Source: Acetobacteraceae bacterium (lineage in GTDB: Bacteria; Pseudomonadota; Alphaproteobacteria; Acetobacterales; Acetobacteraceae). Taken from it: a stretch of 9,714 nucleotides of DNA. The translations under genes and the position numbers were made by a program. The stretch covers positions 1-9,714 of the forward strand of contig PLSZ01000582.1 of assembly GCA_003164305.1 (NCBI GenBank), given 5' to 3'. This document shows, in pieces, positions 1 to 9,714 of this stretch; position 1 is the first letter of the stretch; every line of letters starts with the position of its first letter. The notes below the pieces were generated by a model. That model was given only the letters and a program-made list of their open reading frames with translations. It ran no database searches and was not told the DNA's origin.

Positions 1-2
1 CA

Positions 3-89
3 AACAGCGGCCGCCATGGCACCCTGCCCTGCACATGCCTGCGGAGCAGGCATGGCACCGGCGGTCATGGCACCCGGGAGGAATTGGGA
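3..89 (+). other. Anomalous leader: uncertain reading frame, inverted repeat and CATGGCACC repeats
   Basis: The long frame is open here but reads His/Arg/Cys-rich (HGTLPCTCLRSRHGT), unlike anything downstream, and holds the only Cys codons I found in the frame. Frame 1 instead gives an Ala/Pro/Met-rich peptide from ATG 16 that stops at 124. CATGGCACC occurs three times (15-23, 51-59, 66-74), always in phase with the long frame as His-Gly-Thr. A perfect 9-base inverted repeat with a 3-base loop lies at 34-54. This could be a genuine Gly/His-rich linker, a stretch read out of frame because of a frameshift, or a sequence artefact. Confidence 0.4.
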
Positions 90-3000
90 GGCGGCGCTGT
101 CGGCGCGGGGCTGGCCGGCCTGCTGATCGCGGGCGACGGCGTGCTCGGCAATGGCGGCACGCTGGTCATCGACCCTCAGCAGCAGCAAGTCATCAACTAC
201 TACGACACGATCACCAGCCCAGGTACGTTCACCAATCTCGCCAACAACATGCTGACGGGCGGCACCTACGACATCGAATCGAATTCTACGCTGCAGATTT
301 TCGGCACCGGCGACACCATTCAGACGCTGGCGGCCGATGTCATTCTGGACGGCGTCATCCAGGGCACCAGCAACGGTCCGTTCGGCAATGATGGCCCGCC
401 GGAACTGCAGGTCGTCAACACCTTCAACACCACCGATATCGAATCCTCGCTGACCGAAATCGCCCAGACCGGGACGCTGGCGGTGACCGACGGCGACGGA
501 GCGTACTTTAATAACGCGGTGACCGTCGATGGTGTGTTGCGTCTCACCGGCTCCCCGTACGAGCCATTGGGCGGTGGCACCGCTTATTACGCGGGGCTCG
601 GCGGTGGCGGGATCACGATCGGCGCCACCGGCACTCTGGCCGGTGACGCGTTCGTGTATAGCTCTGTCACGGATAATGGTGGCGCGATCGAAGCGAGCGG
701 CGGCAACCTTAATTTCGCGAACGGCGCCAGCGGAACCGGCGTCGCGACAATCGACCCCGGAGCGTCGCTGGAGGCGGGCCAGACGTTCACGCCGAACATC
801 AGCTTCGATGGCGTGGGCACGCTGATCCTGGACGATCCGTCGTACATTACGGGAACGATCAGCGGTCTTTCGCTTGGCGATACGTTCCAGTTCAACAACG
901 CCACGATCGATTCCGCGTCGCTTACGCAGAATCCCGGGACGCTGGATATCTCTTACCATATCGGAACGACGGACGGCTCCGCCGCGTATGTCCTCGGCGC
1001 CGCCGCGAACCCCGATTTCCAGGCATCGATCGAAAACAACAATTCCGTCGTCATCACCTCGGGCAGTGGCGTCGTGCTGGCGGGCACCGACAACCTGGGC
1101 GGCTTCCAAAGCGACACCGGCTACCAGGACGCGGGCAACACGCATGTCGGCGGCGTCGCGACGACCAATCCTTACATTTCCAACGACGCCCCTGGCGCGA
1201 CCGAGGACCTTGACGCCTCCGTCGTCTTCACGACGGGCGCCGCTGCCGCCACCGGTTCGATCTCGGACCTCGCGCCGGGCCCGGGCCAATACAGCTTCAA
1301 CATCGCGCTGGAGGTCAACGGCGTCACGCGAGGCCTCAATTACGGCACCGTCGGCATCGCGCTGAGCTCCGACGGATCGGAGGCGAACAACGGCGCCGGC
1401 GATGGCTATGGCATCACGCCGTTGGGCACCGACACCATCGGGGTCACCGGGACCGCCTTCAGCCTCGCGACCTACAGCGCGACCGCGCCAACGACGGAGT
1501 ACGTGCATACCGGCGGTGCGACGGTCGAGTATCTGACGATCGCCAATACAGGTCCGACCGATGGTTACTCGGAGGCGCTCGATCCCACCATCGCCAACGC
1601 CAGCGCGGCGGTCGTTTCCGTCATTCAGACCGGCTCGACGGTTGCCGCGGGCGCCACGTCCTATGGCTTTACCAATAACGTAACGATTGACCCGACCGCC
1701 GCTTCGGACACTTCCGACTTTGGGTTCGTCGTCAACACCGCCACGACCGGGCTCGACACTGGCTACGTGGCGCTGGACATGAAATCGGACGGCGGCGGCT
1801 ACGTCCCTGTCAGCCCCGGCAGCACCGATTACGTGCAAGGCCCAAACTACATCGACGGGCTTGGCACCACCGATCTCGGCACGGTCGATGTCCCCTTCGC
1901 GGTGGAGGTCAACAACTTCGCCACTGCGTCCGTCGTCGCGGCGACCGGCGGCGGCACCCTGTCGGGCGACGCGACCAGCGGCTACACGCTCAACCTCGGC
2001 ACCGTCGAGCAGGGCGGCGTTTCGCCCTTCGAATCTCTCGGCATCGCCAATGCGGCGACCGGTCAGGCCGATCAACTCAGCGGCCAGATCGATTACGGAA
2101 CGGGTGACGATACCACCGACTTCGTCGATAACACCGGCGGGTTCAACGACGTCGCGGCCGGCGACACCTCCACGCCGCTGTCGATCGCGCTCTCGACCGC
2201 CAATACCGGCAGCTTCACGCAAACCGTTACGATCGACGCCACCAGCGTCAATCCAGGCGGCACGACCGGCCTGATACCGGAAATCATCACCGTCACCGGT
2301 TCGGTCGTTTCGCCATCGGGCACGCTCGCCACGCCGTCGATCGCGTCGGCGAGCGGAACGATCACCGTGCCGGACGTGCGCTCGGGCTCGACCGGCGCAT
2401 CGACAACGATCAGCATCACCAACAGCGGTTCGGCCGGCGGGCAAAGCCTGGATGTGCAGATCGGCGCGGTGACCGGGGACGCCACCGCGTCGGGTCAGAT
2501 CACCCAGTTGGCGCCAGGCGCCACCGACGATTCCAGCATCACCGTCGGCCTGAACACCGGCGTGGCCGGCGGCGGAGTGGAAACCGGCACGGTCGTGCTC
2601 GACCTGCAATCCGATCCAGCCAACACGGTCACCCCACTGCCCCCGCAAACCCTGACCGTCAGCGGCACGGTTTACAACTCCGCGACCGCTTCCGTTCAGG
2701 CGCCCGTGTCGTTCATCACCCATGTGGGAACCCAGGCGACCGCTCATCTGACGGTGTTCAACACGGCACCCGCCGGGAGTTACTCCGAGGGTTTGATCGT
2801 GGTGCCGGGCGGCGCGTCCGGAAGTATCGCGGTTGCGGGGCAGACGACGCTGATCCCCGCGCAGGGCACCGACGCCACGGACATCGCGCTGACCTTCGCC
2901 AACACGCAGACGGCCGGCGTGGTGACCGGGCAGGTGGCGCTCAACTTCATTACCGACGGGGCTGGCGTCGATAATCTCGGCACCGCGTCGATCGGCGCGC

Positions 3001-6000
3001 AACTGCTTAACGTCACCGGCACCATCGACAACTATGCCACCGCCGCGATCCAGCAATCGGGCGACGGCGACCTGCAGGACGACAACGGATCCTACACGCT
3101 GGACTTCGGAACGGTCGCGCAAGGGACCGACGTCAGCGCGGACCTGACCGCGCTCAACGAAGCCAAAGGTCCGTCCGACGAACTGAGCGGCAGCTTCTAC
3201 ATCCCGACATTGAGCAACCCCGACGCCTTCGACAACGTCGGCTTTGGCCCCTTCTCCGGACTGGGCGCCGGCGCGACCGAGGGGATCGCGAATTCGATTT
3301 CGCTCGATACCAGCACGCTCGGCGTGTTCACCGAGACGCTGACGCTCTACCCGACTGACTACATCCCGAATCCGAACTACGGACAGCCGCCGCTGTTCAC
3401 CGTAAGCGAGACGCCGGTCGATATCACGGTCACCGGCACCGTCTCCGCCCTGGCGATCGCGCAAATCAACAACGGCACGCTCACCGTCGATCTGGGCAAG
3501 GTGCGCGCGGGCGACGACGCGAACGGTTTCATTCCGATCTCGAACATCGCCTCCGTCGGCGCGGAATCGCTGGACGCCGACATCACCGCGACCTCCGGCG
3601 ATATCGACGATAACGAAACGGGTGGCACGGTCGATCAGTTGGCGGCGGGCGCCACCGAGTCGAACAGCATCGCCTATGGCCTCGACACCAGCGATGGCGG
3701 CCACAAAGAAGGCTCGGTCGTTTTCGGCTTCAATTCCGAAGCCGCCGACCAGACGCTGACGCCGCTGCCGGAGCAAACCTTCAACGCGTCCGTCGATGTT
3801 TACGATCTCGCCAACCCGGAAGCGTCGGGGCCGGACAACGCGATCTACCATGTCGGCGAAGAGGCGACCGGCACCATCGACGTCGCGAACATCACCGACA
3901 ATGGCGGATTCAACGAAGATCTGCTGGCGACCGCGAGCGACCCCACCGAGGGGCTGACGCTGGACGGCGCCACCGAAACGGGCCTGATCAAAGCCGGCGC
4001 AAGCAACCAGGACATCACCGTCGGCATCGATACCAGCGAGGCCGGCGAGGTCGATGGGACCGTCACGCTGGACTACCAGTCCGACGGCACCAGCACGGAC
4101 GGGCAGTCGGCCATCTCGATCGGCGGCGAGACTGTCGAGGTCAACGCGACGATCGACAACTACGCGACCGCCGCGCTCGACGGCTACGCGGATGACGGGT
4201 TCTTCGGCGGGCCCGACGACTACGTCATGAACCTCGGCACGATCGAGGAGAATTCCGGCGATCTGTCCGGGTACCTGACGGTATTGAACATCGCCGACGG
4301 TCCGGCCGACATGCTGGCAGGCAGTTGGGATGGCGGGTCCAGTCCGTTCACCAATTACTCCGGCGAATTCAGTGGGATCGAGGCCGGCGACAGCGGCGGC
4401 GACGCGGAGGTTTACCTCAGCAGTTCGGACGGCACGGGTTCGTTCAGCGAAGAATTGACGCTGTACGCTTATGGCTACAACGACAACAACTACACCGATC
4501 CGGATTACCAGATCCTGACGGTCACCGTCGAAGGCGACGTCGTACCGTCGCCGCCCCCGCCACCACCGCCGCCGCCCGAGCCGCCGCCCTCGCCACCCGG
4601 TGGCCACCACTCGGGCGGTTCCGGTGGCGACACGCACATCTATACGTTCGATGGCACGCGGTACGACTTCCAGGCGCAGGGCGAATTCGTCCTGTCCAAG
4701 AGCAAGACCGACGGGTTTCAGGTGCAGGTGCGCCTGACACCGGCATCGGAGACGTCTTCGGTTTCTTACATCGAGATGGTGGGCATCGCGGTCGGCACCC
4801 ACGACGTGGTGTACGACCCGACCCAGGCGGACCCGATCCGCGTCGATGGCACCACGATCACGACCTTCGGCATCGCCAACACGCTGGTCCTGACCGATGG
4901 CACCGGTGCCACCGTCGGCACCGTGACGGACAACGGCGGCAGCTACGTCATCACCGAAGCCACCGGCGAAACGGTGACGGTGCAAGGCAATAACGTCGTC
5001 GTCGGTCTGGGCGCGAACGACACGGTCGATTCGATGGAGGGTCTGCTCGGCGATTACAGTGGAAACAGTAACGATCTGACGCTGGCCAACGGCTTCGCGG
5101 TAACGTTGCCGATGGCTTCGACGTATCTTTACGGCGCCTTCGCCAATTCCTGGCGCGTGACCGACCTGACGTCGCTGCTGTACTACGCGCCGAACCAGGA
5201 CACCGCGACCTTCACCAACACCAGCTTCCCGTACGCGCCGGCGTCATTGACCGAATTCCCGTCGGCGACGGTCGCCGCGGCCACCGCGGCCGCCGTCGCC
5301 GCCGGCATTACCGATCCGGGTCTGCAACAATCCGCGGTGCTCGATTACCTGGAGACCAACGACACCTCCTATCTGACCAGCGCCAACAATCTGCAGCAGC
5401 TCGGCGTGACGTCCACCGGGACGACGAAAGTGGTCACCAGCCCGCCGCCGCCGCCGACCGTCGGGATCCAGGCGGCGGACACCAAGGTGACGGAGCCGAC
5501 CAACGCCGGCGCGAGCACCACGGCGACATTCCAGGTCTATCGCGGCGGCGGCGCCTCGCTGACCGCGCCGGAAATCGTCAACTGGCAGGTGGTCGCGCCG
5601 GACTCGACCTATGTCGGCACCAGCTCGTTCACCAACGGTCTTCCGTCCGGCAGCGTGACGATCGCGGCGGGCCAGAGCACCGGCAGCTTCAACGTCGTCA
5701 TTCCCAACGGCATCGGCACGGTGCCCGAGGCGACGCTCGATGTGCAGATCAGCACGAACGCCGGCGATACCTCCACCGTCGTGTCGCCCAACGCTTACGT
5801 CACCGTGATCAACGGCACGGCGGAACCTGGCGCGATTCCCGCGCTGGCGGCGTTCCAGTTGGTCGGCGGCGTTGGCGCGCTGAGCCAGATTGGCGACGCG
5901 TGGACGCTCAATCTGGGCAACTACGTGGAGAAGTCGGCGGGTGGCAACGGGGAGATCGCGGTCGCCAACATCGGGTCCGCGAACGCCGACGAACTGACCG

Positions 6001-9000
6001 GAAGCCTGACCGGGGCGGGCGACAGCGGCTTCACCACGAACATCGTGCCGAAGCTCGGCTCTCTTGTGTCCGGCGCGATCGAGGATATCGCGACCTACAG
6101 CTACAACATGACGACGGTCGGAACGCATACTCAGACCCTGACCCTGACTCCCGTCGATACGAACCTCAGCGGCTATCACGGCACGCAGGCGGTTCAGACC
6201 CTGACCATCGAGTACGACGTGGTGCCGCCGGCGCAGGCCAGCGTGCTGCCCACGGCGATCAATTTCGGTGAGGTGCGGCTGACCGGCACCGCGGTGACCC
6301 AGGGCCTGACCATCGCCAACACCGGACAGCCGGGCGCCGAGAATCTGGACGCCTCGGTGGGTCCCGCGACCGGGTCGGCGACGGGCAGCGGCACCGTGTC
6401 CGAACTCGTGCAAGGCAGCACCAGCATCGGCACCAGCGGCACCGGGATCGAGGTCGGCCTCGCCGACACGACCGGCGGCGTCGAGTCCGGCACGATCGCC
6501 ATCAATTTGTTCTCGGACGGCAATGGCATCGATCAGACCGGCGTCAGCGCGCTGCTGAGCCAGAACGTGACGGTCAGCGGGACGGTCTACGCGCTCGCCA
6601 GCCCGACGATCACGCCGCCGGGCACGTTCTACACGCATGTCGGGCAAAACCCGGGACTTTCGATCGCCGTCGCGAACGGCGCGGTGAACAACATTTACTC
6701 CGAAGACCTGATCGGCACCGTCGTCAGCGAGTCGAACCTGGCCACCGGCGCGTCCACCACGGGCGACATCCTGCCGGGCGGCTCGTTCGCGGTCGGGCTG
6801 ACGATTCCGGTCGCGAGTTCGGGTGCGTTCTCGGGCTCGGTCACCTTCGATCGCCTGTCCGACGGCACCGGCATCGACAGTTTCGGCATCACCGATCTGG
6901 GCGACCAGACGGTGCAGGTGAACGGCACGGTATTCAATTACGCGACCGCGTCGATCGAGAACCTGTCCAGTTCGGTCGCCACGCTCAACGGCGGTGGCTC
7001 GGCCTATACGCTCAATTTCGGTCAGGTGCTGATTGGCAGCACGCCGGAAAGCGTGTCGCTGGATGTGCGCAACATCGCGTCCGGCACGGCGGACTCGCTG
7101 GCGGGCGCGTTCGCCGTCGCCAACGCGTCCGGCGTGTTCGGCGACAGCGGGTTCAACGCGTTCGGCGGCCTCGCCGCGGGGGCCGCGCAAGGCGGCCAGT
7201 CGATCGTGCTGAATACCGGCACGGCCGGCGTGTTCACGCAGACGATCACGCTGAACGGCACCGGCAGCCATCCGGGCTACAACGGGGCGGTGACGCCGGA
7301 GACGCTGACCGTGGTCGGCACCGTCGTCGTGCCGTCGTTCGGTCAGGCGAAGGCTCAGTTGAACACGCCCGGACCGATCGATCTGGGCAATCAGAGGGTC
7401 GATGACACACCGCTGACGGCGCCGATCTCCTACACCAACGCGGCAACGGCGCCGGCTGAATCGCTGGATGTCGGCGTCGGCCCCACCAGCGGCGACGCGT
7501 TCGGCAACGGCACCATCAGCCTGTTGCAGGCGGGTTCCACCGACGTGAGCGGCCTGACCATCGGCGTATCGACCGGCCAGGCCGGAGCGATCGGCGGCAC
7601 GGTGGCGTTCGACGAATCCTCCGACGGCACCGGCACGGACGGCGCCGGCAAGAGCCTGATCAGCACCTCCACCGTGGCGGTCAGCGGCAACGTCTATCGT
7701 CTGGCGGATCCGTCCGCCGAGGCGCCATCCGAAACGATCGTCCGCGTGGGCGAGACCGGCAGCGAAACTCTGACCGTCGCCAACAACGCGGCGACCGACG
7801 GGTATTCCGAGGACCTGATCGCCGGACTGACCGGCACGAACGGCGCGTTCAGCACCGGCAACGCCGGCCCGACCGGCGACATCGCCGCCGGCTCCAGCAG
7901 CACCGCGCTCAGCGTCGGTTTCTCCACCACGCAGGCCGGCACCGCGACCGGCACCGCGACGCTCGGGCTGAATTCGGACGGCGGCACGGGCGCCGGGAGC
8001 ATCGACGGGCTTGGCCAGGTCGCGCTGACGCCGCAAACGCTGGACCTGGACGCCGTCATCGACAATTACGCCACGGCGGTCATCGAATCCCCCGGCCTGC
8101 TGTCCGGCGGCGGTGATGACTACCTGCTCAATCTGGGCACGACCGGCGTGGGCGACGCCCCGTTGACGGGCGATCTGTCACTGCTGAACGACGCCCTGAC
8201 CGGGAAGCCGTCGGACCTGCTGGATGCCACCTTCTCGGTCGATGGCGTCGATCCGTTCACGAATTTTGGCTTCGATCCGCTGACCGGCATCGAGGCCGGC
8301 AACGATGAGTCCGTCGGCAGCATCTCGCTCGGTACGGACTCCTCGGGTATCTTCGAAGAGACGATCGTGCTGACCCCGAAGAGCGCGAACGCCAAGGAAA
8401 CCCCAGCGTCGCTGCCTTCGGTGACGATCGAGATCGAAGGCACGATTTCGCCGCCACCGCCGTTGAATCCGCCACCGCCGCCGCTCAACCCGCCGCCGCC
8501 GCCGTTGAATCCGCCGCCGCCGCCGCTGAATCCGCCACCCCCGCCGATGATCCCGCCGCCGCCATCGCCGCCGGAGCCGCCGCCGACGCCGCCCGATCCA
8601 ACCGGGTCGCTGTTCCCGGATCCGCATCTGGTGACGTTCAACGGCCAGTACTACAGCTTCCAGACCGCCGGCGAATTCGTGCTGGTCCAGGACACCAACG
8701 GCGGCACCTTCGAGGTGCAGGCCCGCCTGTCCGCGCCCACCGGAGCCTCCAGCTACAGCGTCATTACCGAACTGGGCATTCAGGTCGGTAACGACGTGGT
8801 CACCATCGACTCGACGCGCGGCCAGGCGGTGTGGGTCGATGGCCATAGCATCACGTTCACCGGCAGCACGTACGGCCTGACCGGCGGACTGATCACCAAG
8901 ACCGCCAACGGCTATGTCGTGACGCTGAACACCGGAGAGTCGGTCACCGCCAACATCAACTCCGTCGGGACGCAAACCGGGCCATCGACGACGTCCGGCG

Positions 9001-9714
9001 GGATCTCGATGATCCTCTCGCTCGGCCCGAACGCGACCCCGGGAGGCGTGAACGGCCTGCTGGGCACCGACAGCGGCAACCTGGCCGACGATCTGACGCT
9101 CGCCGACGGGACGCCCGAGCCGATCAACATGGCCGCGTCCACGCTGTACGGGGTGTTCGCGACCGCATGGCGCGTCACGCAGGACACGTCGCTGCTGAAC
9201 TACGCCAATGGTCAGACCACTGCGACGTTCACCGACACGAACTACCCGGGCACGCCGATCGGGATCACCTCGTTCTCGGCGGCCGAGCAGGCCGCGGCGG
9301 CGGCGTTCGTGCTCCAGGCCGGGATTACCGATCCTGGGCTGGCGGCCGCGGCGGAGTACGATTACCTGGTGACAGGCGATCCCTCGATCGTGTCGATCGA
9401 GTCGAATCTGCAACAACAGGGCGTCACCACCACCACGGTTTCGCCACCGCCGCCGCCGGCCGCGCCGCCGGTCGAGATCAGCGTCCAGTCGTCTTCGGTA
9501 ACGGTGACGGAAGCCGCGTCCGGTCCGACCACGGCCAACTTCAACGTCTATCGCTCGGGCGATACATCGGCGGATGTGACGGTCAACTACGCGGTGATCG
9601 CGCCGGATTCCTCGTATCTCGGCGCGGCGGCGCTCGGCGGCACGTTGCCGTCCGGCAGCGTCACCATCGCGGCGGGCCAGACGATGGCGGTGGTGCCGAT
9701 CACCATCCCCGCCG
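3..9714 (+). CDS. Giant repeat-built extracellular protein with choice-of-anchor-D-like, vWFD and Calx-beta domains (partial, open at both ends)
   Basis: One frame runs without a stop across the window, giving at least 3,237 residues; the true start and stop lie outside. The first in-frame ATG (249) has no ribosome binding site and would cut into the beta-strand domain. TTG 84 sits only two bases after GGGAGG (76-81), too close to be a normal start. Domain order: Gly-rich segment, autotransporter-like beta-strand domain, nine Ig-like repeats, Pro linker, vWFD, helical segment, Pro hinge, Calx-beta, seven Ig-like repeats, Pro linker, vWFD, helical segment, Pro hinge, Calx-beta (cut). Composition is acidic, Gly/Thr/Ala-rich, low in Lys/Arg and Cys-free after residue ~15, as in secreted Gram-negative repeat proteins. 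Repeats such as SDGTGID, GYSEDLI and YTLNLGTV are typical of the choice-of-anchor D family. I infer a surface or matrix adhesin; no catalytic motif is visible. Secretion signals (type I, autotransporter or sorting tag) would lie outside the window. Confidence 0.93.
34..54. repeat. Perfect 9-bp inverted repeat (hairpin)
   Basis: CATGCCTGC (34-42) and GCAGGCATG (46-54) are exact reverse complements around the loop GGA. No T-run follows, so it does not look like an intrinsic terminator. Its role is unknown. Confidence 0.5.
90..677 (+). other. N-terminal Gly-rich segment and beta-strand-rich passenger-like region
   Basis: Residues 30-45 are Gly/Ala/Leu-rich (GGGAVGAGLAGLLIAGDG), followed by short alternating hydrophobic strands separated by Gly/Asn/Asp turns (TLQIFGTGDTIQTL, DVILDGVIQG, AVTVDGVLRL, GGITIGATGTLAGDAFV). 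This pattern of about one strand per 20 residues resembles a right-handed beta-helix or autotransporter passenger. The Gly/Leu stretch is short and interrupted by Gly, so I do not call it a signal peptide or membrane span. Confidence 0.5.
678..1094 (+). other. Autotransporter-associated beta-strand domain
   Basis: The segment runs GGAIEASGG, GTGVATIDPGASLEAGQ, ISFDGVGTLILDDPSYIT, GTISGLSLGDTFQF, NATIDSASL. This follows a pattern I know from alphaproteobacterial passenger domains (GGxIEASGGxL, xIDxGAxLE, TLxLDDPxxFTGTISGxxxGD, xIxSAxL). Residues about 310-365 (AAYVLGAAANPDFQAS, then SVVITSGSGVVL) close the domain before the Ig-like array. Such domains form beta-solenoid stalks in exported proteins; that function is inferred. 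Confidence 0.6.
1095..1460 (+). repeat. Ig-like repeat C1 (choice-of-anchor D type)
   Basis: First, most divergent beta-sandwich. It shows HVGGVATTNPYISND, then EDLDASV (matching ESLDV of later C repeats), GSISDLAPG, SSDGSEANNGAGDGYG and the closing strand TIGVTGTAF. Array 1 starts here. Confidence 0.6.
1461..1928 (+). repeat. Ig-like repeat A1, enlarged by an insertion
   Basis: Type A landmarks are VHTGGATVEYLTIANTG, DGYSEAL, DTGYVALDMKSDGGG, YIDGLGTTDLG and the end NNFATA. At 156 codons it is about 33 codons longer than A2-A5. The extra material lies mainly around residues 530-580 (VIQTGSTVAAG to TSDFGF) and between the SDG motif and IDGLG. Confidence 0.7.
1929..2309 (+). repeat. Ig-like repeat B1
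   Basis: Type B landmarks are SGYTLNLGTVEQGG, LGIANAATGQADQLSG, DFVDNTGGFNDVAAGD, TGSFTQTVTID and the closing ITVTGSVV. It is the first repeat in register with array 2 (partner B4). Confidence 0.75.
2310..2675 (+). repeat. Ig-like repeat C2
   Basis: Type C landmarks are ITVPDVRSGSTG, TISITNSG, QSLDVQIGAVTGDA, ITQLAPGATDDSSITVGL, LQSDPANTVTPLPPQT and the closing VSGTVY. It shares the PLPxQT ending with C3. Confidence 0.75.
2676..3044 (+). repeat. Ig-like repeat A2
   Basis: Type A landmarks are FITHVGTQATAHLTVFNTA, SYSEGLIV, TLIPAQGTD, AGVVTGQVALNFITDGAG, VDNLGTASIG and the closing TGTIDNYATA. Confidence 0.8.
3045..3446 (+). repeat. Ig-like repeat B2
   Basis: Type B landmarks are GSYTLDFGTVAQGTD, LNEAKGPSDELSGSF, FDNVGFGPFSGLGAGATE, ISLDTSTLGVFTETLTLYP and the closing ITVTGTVS. 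It is one of the cleanest family matches in the window. Confidence 0.85.
3447..3803 (+). repeat. Ig-like repeat C3
   Basis: Type C landmarks are LTVDLGKVRAGDD, IPISNIASVGAESLDADI, VDQLAAGATESNSIAYGL, EGSVVFGFNSE, LTPLPEQTF and the closing ASVDVY. Confidence 0.8.
3804..4172 (+). repeat. Ig-like repeat A3
   Basis: Type A landmarks are AIYHVGEEATGTIDVAN, GGFNEDLLAT, GLIKAGASNQDITVGIDTS, AGEVDGTVTLDYQSDGTS and the closing NATIDNYATA. It is notably acidic. Confidence 0.8.
4173..4541 (+). repeat. Ig-like repeat B3 (last of array 1)
   Basis: Type B landmarks are DDYVMNLGTIEENSG, LNIADGPADMLAG, PFTNYSGEFSGIEAGDS, GSFSEELTLYAYG and the closing LTVTVEGDV. Its tail is unusually rich in Tyr and Asn (YGYNDNNYTDPDY). 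Confidence 0.8.
4545..4628 (+). repeat. Proline-rich linker 1 followed by a Gly/His/Ser hinge
   Basis: Residues 1515-1532 are almost all proline, broken by Ser and Glu. They are followed by GGHHSGGSGG (1533-1542). This is a low-complexity spacer between array 1 and the first vWFD domain, probably an extended rigid rod plus a flexible hinge. Confidence 0.9.
4629..5231 (+). other. von Willebrand factor type D-like domain 1
   Basis: The domain opens with GDTHIYTFDGTRYDFQAQGE, continues FVLSKSKTDGFQVQVRL, and contains IRVDGTTI, GLLGDYSGNSNDLTLANG and LYGAFANSWRVT, ending near QDTATFTNTSFP. This matches bacterial vWFD domains: an opening (D/G)xHxxTFDG, then a GLLGxxxGNxxxDLxLxDG loop, then the LYGxFAxSWRV segment. 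No Cys is present, so the disulfides of animal vWFD domains are absent. The acidic GLLG loop may bind calcium (inference). These domains usually occur in large secreted or adhesive proteins. Confidence 0.85.
5232..5408 (+). other. Ala-rich helical segment 1 following vWFD
   Basis: Residues 1749-1802 include ATVAAATAAAVAAGITDPGL, then LDYLETNDTSYLTSANNLQQ. This is the only predicted helical stretch in the repeat unit. It is conserved in the second copy (AGITDPGL, YL.T.D, NLQQ). A similar (S/A)GITDP segment follows vWFD in bacterial relatives as I recall them. Confidence 0.75.
5442..5456 (+). repeat. Proline hinge 1b
   Basis: Five consecutive CCG proline codons join the helical segment to the Calx-beta-like domain. 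The second copy has the same hinge in the same place. Confidence 0.85.
5457..5813 (+). other. Calx-beta-like domain 1
   Basis: The order of motifs is VGIQAADTKVTEP, TTATFQVYRGG, VNWQVVAPDSTYVG, LPSGSVTIAAGQSTGSFNV, VIPNGIGTVPEATLDVQIS and AYVTVINGTAEPG. This follows the Calx-beta fold: VxE near the start, F.V.R, then SGSVTIAAGQ, PE.TL.V.I and a last VTVIN strand. In other proteins these domains bind calcium through acidic loops; here that is inferred. Confidence 0.75.
5832..6224 (+). repeat. Ig-like repeat B4 (first of array 2)
   Basis: Type B landmarks are DAWTLNLGNYVEKSAGG, EIAVANIGSANADELTGSL, GTHTQTLTLTPVD, SGYHGTQAVQTL and the closing TIEYDVV. It is more divergent than B2 and B5, lacking the FSGLGAG motif. 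Confidence 0.7.
6225..6590 (+). repeat. Ig-like repeat C4
   Basis: Type C landmarks are INFGEVRLTGTAVTQGLTIA, ENLDASVGPATGSA, GTVSELVQGST, LFSDGNGIDQTGVSAL and the closing VTVSGTVY. The opening FGEVRLTG is the classic choice-of-anchor D first strand. Confidence 0.8.
6591..6950 (+). repeat. Ig-like repeat A4
   Basis: Type A landmarks are FYTHVGQNPGLSIAVANG, YSEDLIGTV, GDILPGGSFAVGL, RLSDGTGIDSFGITDLGDQT and the closing VNGTVFNYATA. Confidence 0.85.
6951..7328 (+). repeat. Ig-like repeat B5
   Basis: Type B landmarks are SAYTLNFGQVLIGSTPE, VRNIASGTADSLAGAF, FGDSGFNAFGGLAAGAAQGG, GVFTQTITLNGTGSHPGYNG and the closing LTVVGTVV. The motif GTGSHPGYNGAVTPETLTV is very typical of the family. Confidence 0.85.
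7329..7697 (+). repeat. Ig-like repeat C5
   Basis: Type C landmarks are IDLGNQRVDDTPLTAPISYT, AESLDVGVGPTSGDA, ISLLQAGSTDVSGLTIGV, DESSDGTGTDGAG and the closing VAVSGNVY. Confidence 0.8.
7698..8078 (+). repeat. Ig-like repeat A5
   Basis: Type A landmarks are TIVRVGETGSETLTVANNA, DGYSEDLIAGLTG, GDIAAGSSSTALSVGFSTTQ, SIDGLGQVALTPQTL and the closing AVIDNYATA. The opening RLADPSA is a common family junction. Confidence 0.85.
8079..8450 (+). repeat. Ig-like repeat B6 (last of array 2)
   Basis: Type B landmarks are DDYLLNLGTTGVGDAPLTG, LSLLNDALTGKPSDLLDAT, PFTNFGFDPLTGIEAGND, SGIFEETIVLTPKSA and the closing VTIEIEGTIS. As with B3, it directly precedes the proline linker, and its GIEAG motif is shared only with B3. 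Confidence 0.8.
8451..8612 (+). repeat. Proline-rich linker 2 with 21-bp tandem repeats
   Basis: One 18-base unit (8451-8468) and four 21-base units (8469-8489, 8490-8510, 8511-8531, 8532-8552) encode PPPPLN or PPPPPLN, the last unit ending Met-Ile. They are followed by a degenerate Pro/Ser/Glu/Thr tail up to PDPTGSL. At 54 codons in total it is about twice the length of linker 1. Such GC-rich tandem units are prone to slippage, so copy number may vary between strains. Confidence 0.92.
8616..9248 (+). other. von Willebrand factor type D-like domain 2
   Basis: Motifs are PDPHLVTFNGQYYSFQTAGE, FVLVQDTNGGTFEVQARL, VWVDGHSITFTG, GLLGTDSGNLADDLTLADG and LYGVFATAWRVTQ, ending QTTATFTDTNYP. It is collinear with vWFD 1 and opens with the standard DPHL form. 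The opening FDG/FNG and GEFV motifs are offset by exactly 3,990 bases from copy 1. No Cys is present. Confidence 0.88.
9249..9425 (+). other. Ala-rich helical segment 2 following vWFD
   Basis: The segment reads AAEQAAAAAFVLQAGITDPG, then YDYLVTGDPSIVSIESNLQQ. It is clearly homologous to the segment after vWFD 1 and ends at the same QQ-GV junction. Confidence 0.78.
9444..9470 (+). repeat. Proline hinge 2b
   Basis: Five Pro codons, two Ala codons and two further Pro codons. It sits in the same position as the hinge before Calx-beta 1. Confidence 0.85.
9471..9714 (+). other. Calx-beta-like domain 2 (cut by window end)
   Basis: Motifs are VEISVQSSSVTVTEAA, TANFNVYRSGD, VNYAVIAPDSSYLG and LPSGSVTIAAGQT, reaching the VPITIPA strand when the window ends. 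It is collinear with copy 1. The LPSGSVTIAAGQ coding block is nearly identical in the two copies (from 5643 and from 9648), differing at two synonymous sites. Confidence 0.78.

Follow-up and report, generated by a model that had tools for sequence, protein, structure and literature searches.

The window analysed here, a stretch of 9,714 nucleotides in all, is occupied by a single plus-strand open frame (3..9713) of 3,237 aa, which no stop interrupts and which is open at both ends. With a GC content of 66% and a GC3 of 0.86, the frame encodes an acidic protein (Asp plus Glu 319 versus Lys plus Arg 40) whose only cysteines lie at aa 10 and 12. Both are carried by the first 27 codons (window 1-83), a His/Arg-rich stretch in which ATGGCACC occurs three times; the first in-frame Met is aa 83, and window 1-83 may either hold the actual gene start or be an artefact of the contig end. 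Antisense open frames of 1,661 and 930 aa on the minus strand (3-4985 and 5244-8036) are most likely a by-product of the high GC3. Pfam recognizes two VWD domains in the window protein (7e-23), above the cut-off in both V1 and V2. The NCBIfam model choice_anch_D (NF012200) matches the protein at 5.3e-53 in ten stretches and reaches 178.1 bits against a curated cut-off of 45, so that the Ig-like repeats qualify as choice-of-anchor D domains. Hidden Markov models for A, B, C, V (the vWFD with its helical part), X and N, trained on the window and refined on its relatives, read the window as N, CAB, CAB, CAB, VXB, CAB, CAB, VX (Table 1). The Pro-rich array ahead of V2 (8449-8592) is much longer than the V1 linker and is likely to be variable in length.

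Table 1. Domains and linkers of the window protein, with nucleotide positions in the window.
Feature	Position	Strand	Basis
N-terminal beta-strand-rich domain (N)	84..1037	+	BLASTP and phmmer to the pre-triplet region of relatives, e.g. P0008
Triplet 1, Ig-like/choice-of-anchor D: C1 1035-1469, A1 1470-1913, B1 1914-2339	1035..2339	+	motif boundaries, HMM map, NF012200
Triplet 2: C2 2340-2678, A2 2679-3029, B2 3030-3461	2340..3461	+	motif boundaries, HMM map
Triplet 3: C3 3462-3806, A3 3807-4157, B3 4158-4535	3462..4535	+	motif boundaries, HMM map
Pro-rich linker ahead of V1	4536..4607	+	sequence
V1 vWFD, start motif GDTH (no Pro), Gln at Asp+14	4608..5093	+	Pfam VWD, motif
V1 helical C8-like domain with AGITDPG helix, no Cys	5094..5438	+	
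Short Pro hinge between V1 helical domain and X1	5439-5456	+	
X1 Calx-beta-like domain	5457..5813	+	
B4, after-X class B, end of V-X-B cassette	5814..6233	+	B tree
Triplet 4: C4 6234-6593, A4 6594-6935, B5 6936-7355	6234..7355	+	motif boundaries, HMM map
Triplet 5: C5 7356-7700, A5 7701-8063, B6 8064-8435	7356..8435	+	motif boundaries, HMM map
Long Pro linker ahead of V2; 21-nt unit about 6.7x (8449-8592)	8436..8597	+	TRF
V2 vWFD, PDPH (Asp 8619-8621, His 8625-8627), Gln at Asp+14 (8661-8663)	8598..9113	+	Pfam VWD, motif, clade
V2 C8-like helical domain (GITDPG)	9114..9440	+	aligned to V1 over whole module, 44% identity
Pro hinge between V2 helical domain and X2	9441-9458	+	
X2 Calx-beta-like, cut by window end	9459..9713	+	HMM map

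The AF2 model of triplet 4 is all-beta, with a mean pLDDT of 89, and matches ciliary central-apparatus, ASH/PapD-like and SPD-2 chains; the Pfam ASH model scores 16.2 bits in the window, below its cut-off of 27. What sets these domains apart from the choice-of-anchor D/ASH-SPD-2-HYDIN Ig domains is their division into three classes, which follow one another in the fixed order C-A-B in a giant bacterial protein. In animals, VWD-C8 pairs occur in mucins, VWF and related proteins, and cysteines lock them there. The predicted model of the V module takes up a VWD-C8-like fold: 229 of its residues 1-266 align with VWD-C8, and as the VWD of the model ends near residue 162, at least 67 of the aligned residues belong to the helical part. 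With C8 placed within the compared VWD-C8 chains where we presume it to lie, the helical domain is predicted to pack on the VWD in the manner of C8; the V1 model suggests the same fold for the helical domain of V2. This predicted pair resembles the VWD-C8 core of gel-forming mucins, VWF and FCGBP, but V1 and V2 contain no cysteine, Pfam C8 gives no match at E <= 10 in five modules, and a Pfam scan over the full protein gives no E domain and no TIL (at E <= 0.1), the Calx-beta-like X domain following instead. X is likened to the Calx-beta domain by its fold, while the Pfam Calx-beta model has no match in the window at E <= 0.1. If the bacterial pair is truly a disulphide-free VWD-C8, repeated as it is in giant and probably secreted proteins, it would offer a simple system for studying the role of the fold without disulphides, and for asking what the self-cleavage of certain VWD domains is for.

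The same two cassettes, VXB and CAB, recur among the relatives of the window protein. In the 72 proteins from the first two protein searches, which were chosen by their match to the window and exclude P0073-P0082 (as do the B tree and the block comparison below), a VXB run occurs in 43 and a CAB run in 41, with both in 32 and neither in 20. Of 88 V modules, 74 have X next to them on the C-terminal side and the remaining 14 are the last mapped domain; of 85 X domains, 75 lead into B. At least two V modules are present in 19 of the 21 giant relatives from the first search, a search that favours long proteins. Tandem VXB-VXB is seen in P0001 and P0003-P0006, four VXB are carried by both P0001 and a 9,721-aa Rhodopila frame, and V modules are separated by 0 to 3 triplets. 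The B domains directly behind X make up a distinct class. In a tree of 178 B domains (a quick tree with few columns), only 3 label changes separate the 76 after-X B from the 102 others, compared with a mean of 57.5 changes when the labels were shuffled (0 of 500 shuffles as low as 3); the five nearest rows are all after-X for the window's B4 and all of the other kind for B1, B2 and B3. The existence of this after-X class indicates that VXB is a cassette. VXB also occurs beside RHS repeats (P0043), Hint_2 (P0033, P0036, P0038), NIDO (P0033), DUF5648 (P0047) and RTX repeats (P0025); in P0043 the RHS repeats next to VXB match in nine stretches. A Pro-rich linker was considered as a defining feature of V modules and was ruled out: among the 79 V modules preceded by 45 aa or more, only 31 have five or more Pro in that stretch. 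A terminal V without X is found in P0003, P0010, P0016, P0026, P0027, P0028, P0035, P0037, P0041, P0042, P0049 and L054; 97-142 residues follow V in such proteins, and the tails of P0003, P0027 and P0028 end with a GHGG motif.

An earlier note on this DNA had proposed that a super-unit of seven Ig-like repeats, Pro linker, vWFD, helix, Pro hinge and Calx-beta occurs twice as the result of duplication of the whole block. The repetition itself is real. Self-BLAST of the whole protein gave no off-diagonal matches, which we attribute to their being dropped inside the full-length match, and the two halves were compared instead: aa 655-1901 match aa 1964-3236 collinearly at 36% identity (E 6e-134), and the four offsets quoted between equivalent points of the two runs are exact. 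The local score between the halves is 1786 versus at most 232 in 100 shuffles, so the order of the repeats is far beyond chance. The multidomain order thus does recur, with repetition at the level of the triplet as well as of the super-unit, but the unit was drawn out of phase. It opened the first copy at B1 and the second at B4, and these B domains are of different classes; the natural units are CAB and VXB. Nor do C1 and A1 need to be the remnant of an earlier partial unit. P0008 reads N-(CAB)3-VXB-(CAB)3-VXB, and since the window shares the order N-(CAB)3-VXB, the simplest reading of C1-A1-B1 is as the triplet that opens the series behind the N domain. We consider it probable, jointly with the extracellular fibre discussed below, that the super-unit reflects a family grammar running twice in succession, with V nodes that belong to different, old subclasses.

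One alternative is an old, ancestral duplication of the block, which would have preceded the spread of the V subclasses and been kept since as the family architecture. The V-to-V spacing of 1,314-1,335 aa does recur in P0003, P0005 and P0006, and the triplet trees are compatible with such an event. The spacing in these three proteins is however made up of VXB, C, an unmatched 153-156 aa, AB and an unmatched 284-316 aa; these contents differ, so that equal spacing is not proof of the same block, and the idea that it marks a shared super-unit was ruled out. The varying count of intervening triplets also speaks against an inherited block. In the triplet tree, T2 and T3 are sisters (97/75), and triplet 5 is sister to P0022_T2 (99/84); trees in which T2-T4 or T3-T5 were held together slightly outscore the free search, by 6.4 and 2.2 log units (AU 0.587 and 0.551), and the collinear pairing is not rejected. 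Overall, we regard an ancestral block duplication as unlikely.

A duplication of the whole B-C-A-B-C-A-B-V-X block as a unit within the gene, not long ago, would account for the single long collinear match and for the better scores of the held triplet trees, and P0008 does carry sister V modules (100/96). It does not fit the degree of likeness between the blocks. Block 1 and block 2 align with a score of 1793 (40.6% identity), and the scores of block 1 with P0001, two stretches of P0008 and Rhodopila are 1727, 1644, 1801 and 1733, those of block 2 with the same four being 1856, 1676, 1863 and 1820; the Rhodopila stretch carries an extra unmatched 165 aa. The within-gene score therefore falls inside the between-organism range (1644-1863), and the blocks of this gene are as far apart as the blocks of different organisms. 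At the DNA level, the inter-block matches are at most 86 nt at 71% among the 20 of 40 families listed, Pro linkers aside, and such short, diverged matches do not point to a recent copy. The V modules tell a similar story. V2 belongs to an 11-row clade (100/99) together with the modules of ten other proteins at 60-72% identity, V1 lies outside it, and the two were united in 0 of 200 bootstrap trees. Holding V1 and V2 together gave a borderline AU test (p 0.044) in a tree of 81 of the 90 V rows, those longer than 200 aa, and holding V1, its close relative P0075 and V2 together was also borderline (p 0.060) in a 99-row tree that leaves aside P0065, P0071, P0072, short pieces and the L003 duplicates of P0006. 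A tree of 49 VX modules had paired V1 and V2 weakly (68/82; 70% of 200 bootstrap trees), a pairing that was overturned once closer relatives of V2 entered. Finally, a close relative, broken into two pieces (P0074 and P0075) on contigs that are both 23,513 bases long, matches aa 1134-1726 at 81% (P0075) and aa 1885-2208 at 88%, stretches of unit 1 and of what follows it, while V1 and V2 are 44% identical; the split between V1 and V2 is thus much older than that from this relative, and so is any such duplication event. Together with the different classes of B1 and B4, these results do not support a recent block duplication, which we judge quite improbable. More generally, a long collinear self-match in a repeat protein should be taken as a block duplication only after a between-organism control.

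That the window holds a decayed or misassembled repeat gene with no working product is very improbable, for although frames are broken in some metagenomic relatives (P0074, P0075; L057), here 3,237 codons stay open with a high GC3, class-specific residues are retained and, where it matches, the close relative shows 81-88% identity. The earlier note had predicted a further copy of the block downstream, which is possible without being implied. A later V follows the V2-clade module in 0 of 10 database relatives, several of them fragments found by a length-limited search. These relatives continue with XB and up to two triplets, those of P0032 being incomplete, and end in Hint_2, Big_9 and RTX, DUF5648 or unassigned tails. 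In L057, an Acetobacteraceae metagenome-assembled genome locus with broken frames, a V2-like piece and XBCAB are followed by a V of another class. A further V downstream of V2 is thus possible, and it need not copy the same block.

The start motifs of the V modules raise the question of self-cleavage. In FCGBP, self-cleavage at Asp-Pro needs the Asp and His of GDPH and is aided by a Gln 14 residues past the Asp, and a cis Gly-Asp bond is proposed (PMC10880436). V2 has PDPH with Gln at +14, so it carries the Asp, Pro, His and Gln in question and could cut itself; V1 has GDTH with Gln at +14 and so offers no Asp-Pro bond. V2 has Pro where GDPH has Gly; the cis Gly-Asp bond may then not form, and cleavage of V2 can be put forward only as a hypothesis. 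Unlike the VWD of FCGBP and mucins, the bacterial copies mostly have DVH (46 of the 63 V modules, out of 90, with a readable start), with DPH plus Gln in 11 and other motifs in 6. One could speculate that Acetobacteraceae make giant mucin-like fibres with Cys-free VWD-C8 nodes, in which the V2 subclass would cut itself at Asp-Pro and leave pieces held only by beta-strand pairing, V1 being uncuttable. We offer this as a tentative and rather doubtful idea; if true, one gene would encode both an uncuttable node (V1) and a breakable one (V2).

The window most likely represents the interior of one giant gene whose product is probably secreted as an extended surface or matrix protein, in an alphaproteobacterium that its relatives suggest to be of Acetobacteraceae type. 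The C-terminus lies beyond the window and the gene start is unsure, so any anchor or secretion signal, such as the C-terminal one of a type 1 secreted adhesin, is out of view. In the proposed fibre, the C-A-B triplets of ASH/HYDIN/PapD-like Ig domains would act as stalk spacers, and the V-X-B cassettes as nodes. Each node would combine a Cys-free VWD and its C8-like partner with a Calx-beta-like domain and a special B, and Pro-rich hinges are present in some. Cassettes have probably been gained, lost, duplicated and exchanged as the family evolved, with recombination as the putative motor. Hint_2 and RTX tails are typical of exported proteins, and it is from the domain types and the tails of the relatives that we infer export and a role in adhesion or the matrix; the fibre shape is likewise our extrapolation. 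As a whole, a cassette grammar in an extracellular fibre of an Acetobacteraceae-type bacterium is the reading we favour with some confidence, and for a specifically adhesive role we lean only slightly towards yes. Other giant proteins offer partial parallels. SiiE and the Giant1-5 proteins of Apilactobacillus are alike in having thousands of residues with repeated Ig-like or other modules and in being extracellular (PMC6272769, PMC5466336, PMC12863079); they differ from the present protein with its VWD-C8-like nodes, its two-cassette grammar and the lack of a transporter among the neighbours scanned. Our literature search for bacterial vWD, in which few subscription papers are covered, returned only an eLife passage on myxobacteria, where the vWD of prok-SAA is called 'the first bacterial example' and proposed to adhere to prey (PMC12419801). 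These are different proteins, the giant proteins described here having several vWD modules with a C8-like partner.

The family appears to be patchily distributed, as a match was present in 12 of 397 genomes drawn from the Rhodopila family (at most six candidates being scored per entry listed). The genome scan yielded 21 loci, which belong to Rhodopila, Acidisphaera, Acidisoma and further Acetobacteraceae, and to Rhodospirillales or unclassified proteobacteria; cyanobacteria, actinobacteria, acidobacteria and others gave weaker VWD matches. A phage origin was considered and set aside, as V1 matched no phage record and no PHROG family was hit; 11 plasmid records matched, of which four span 80% or more of V1-X1 with roughly 32% identity. 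The 12 proteins scanned in the neighbourhood (Rhodopila, L003, L005, L006, L007 and L053) include no transporter family and no common partner except for TPR matches at two Acidisoma loci. At the L005 locus, a VXB giant gene is followed immediately downstream by a Hint_2 frame of its own (6676-8742). The 9,721-aa Rhodopila frame with its four VXB (genome G001, contig C123, 61182-90350; L048-L050) has a flavin reductase-like gene upstream and, just downstream on the opposite strand, a gene for a CBM60 xylan-binding-type protein.
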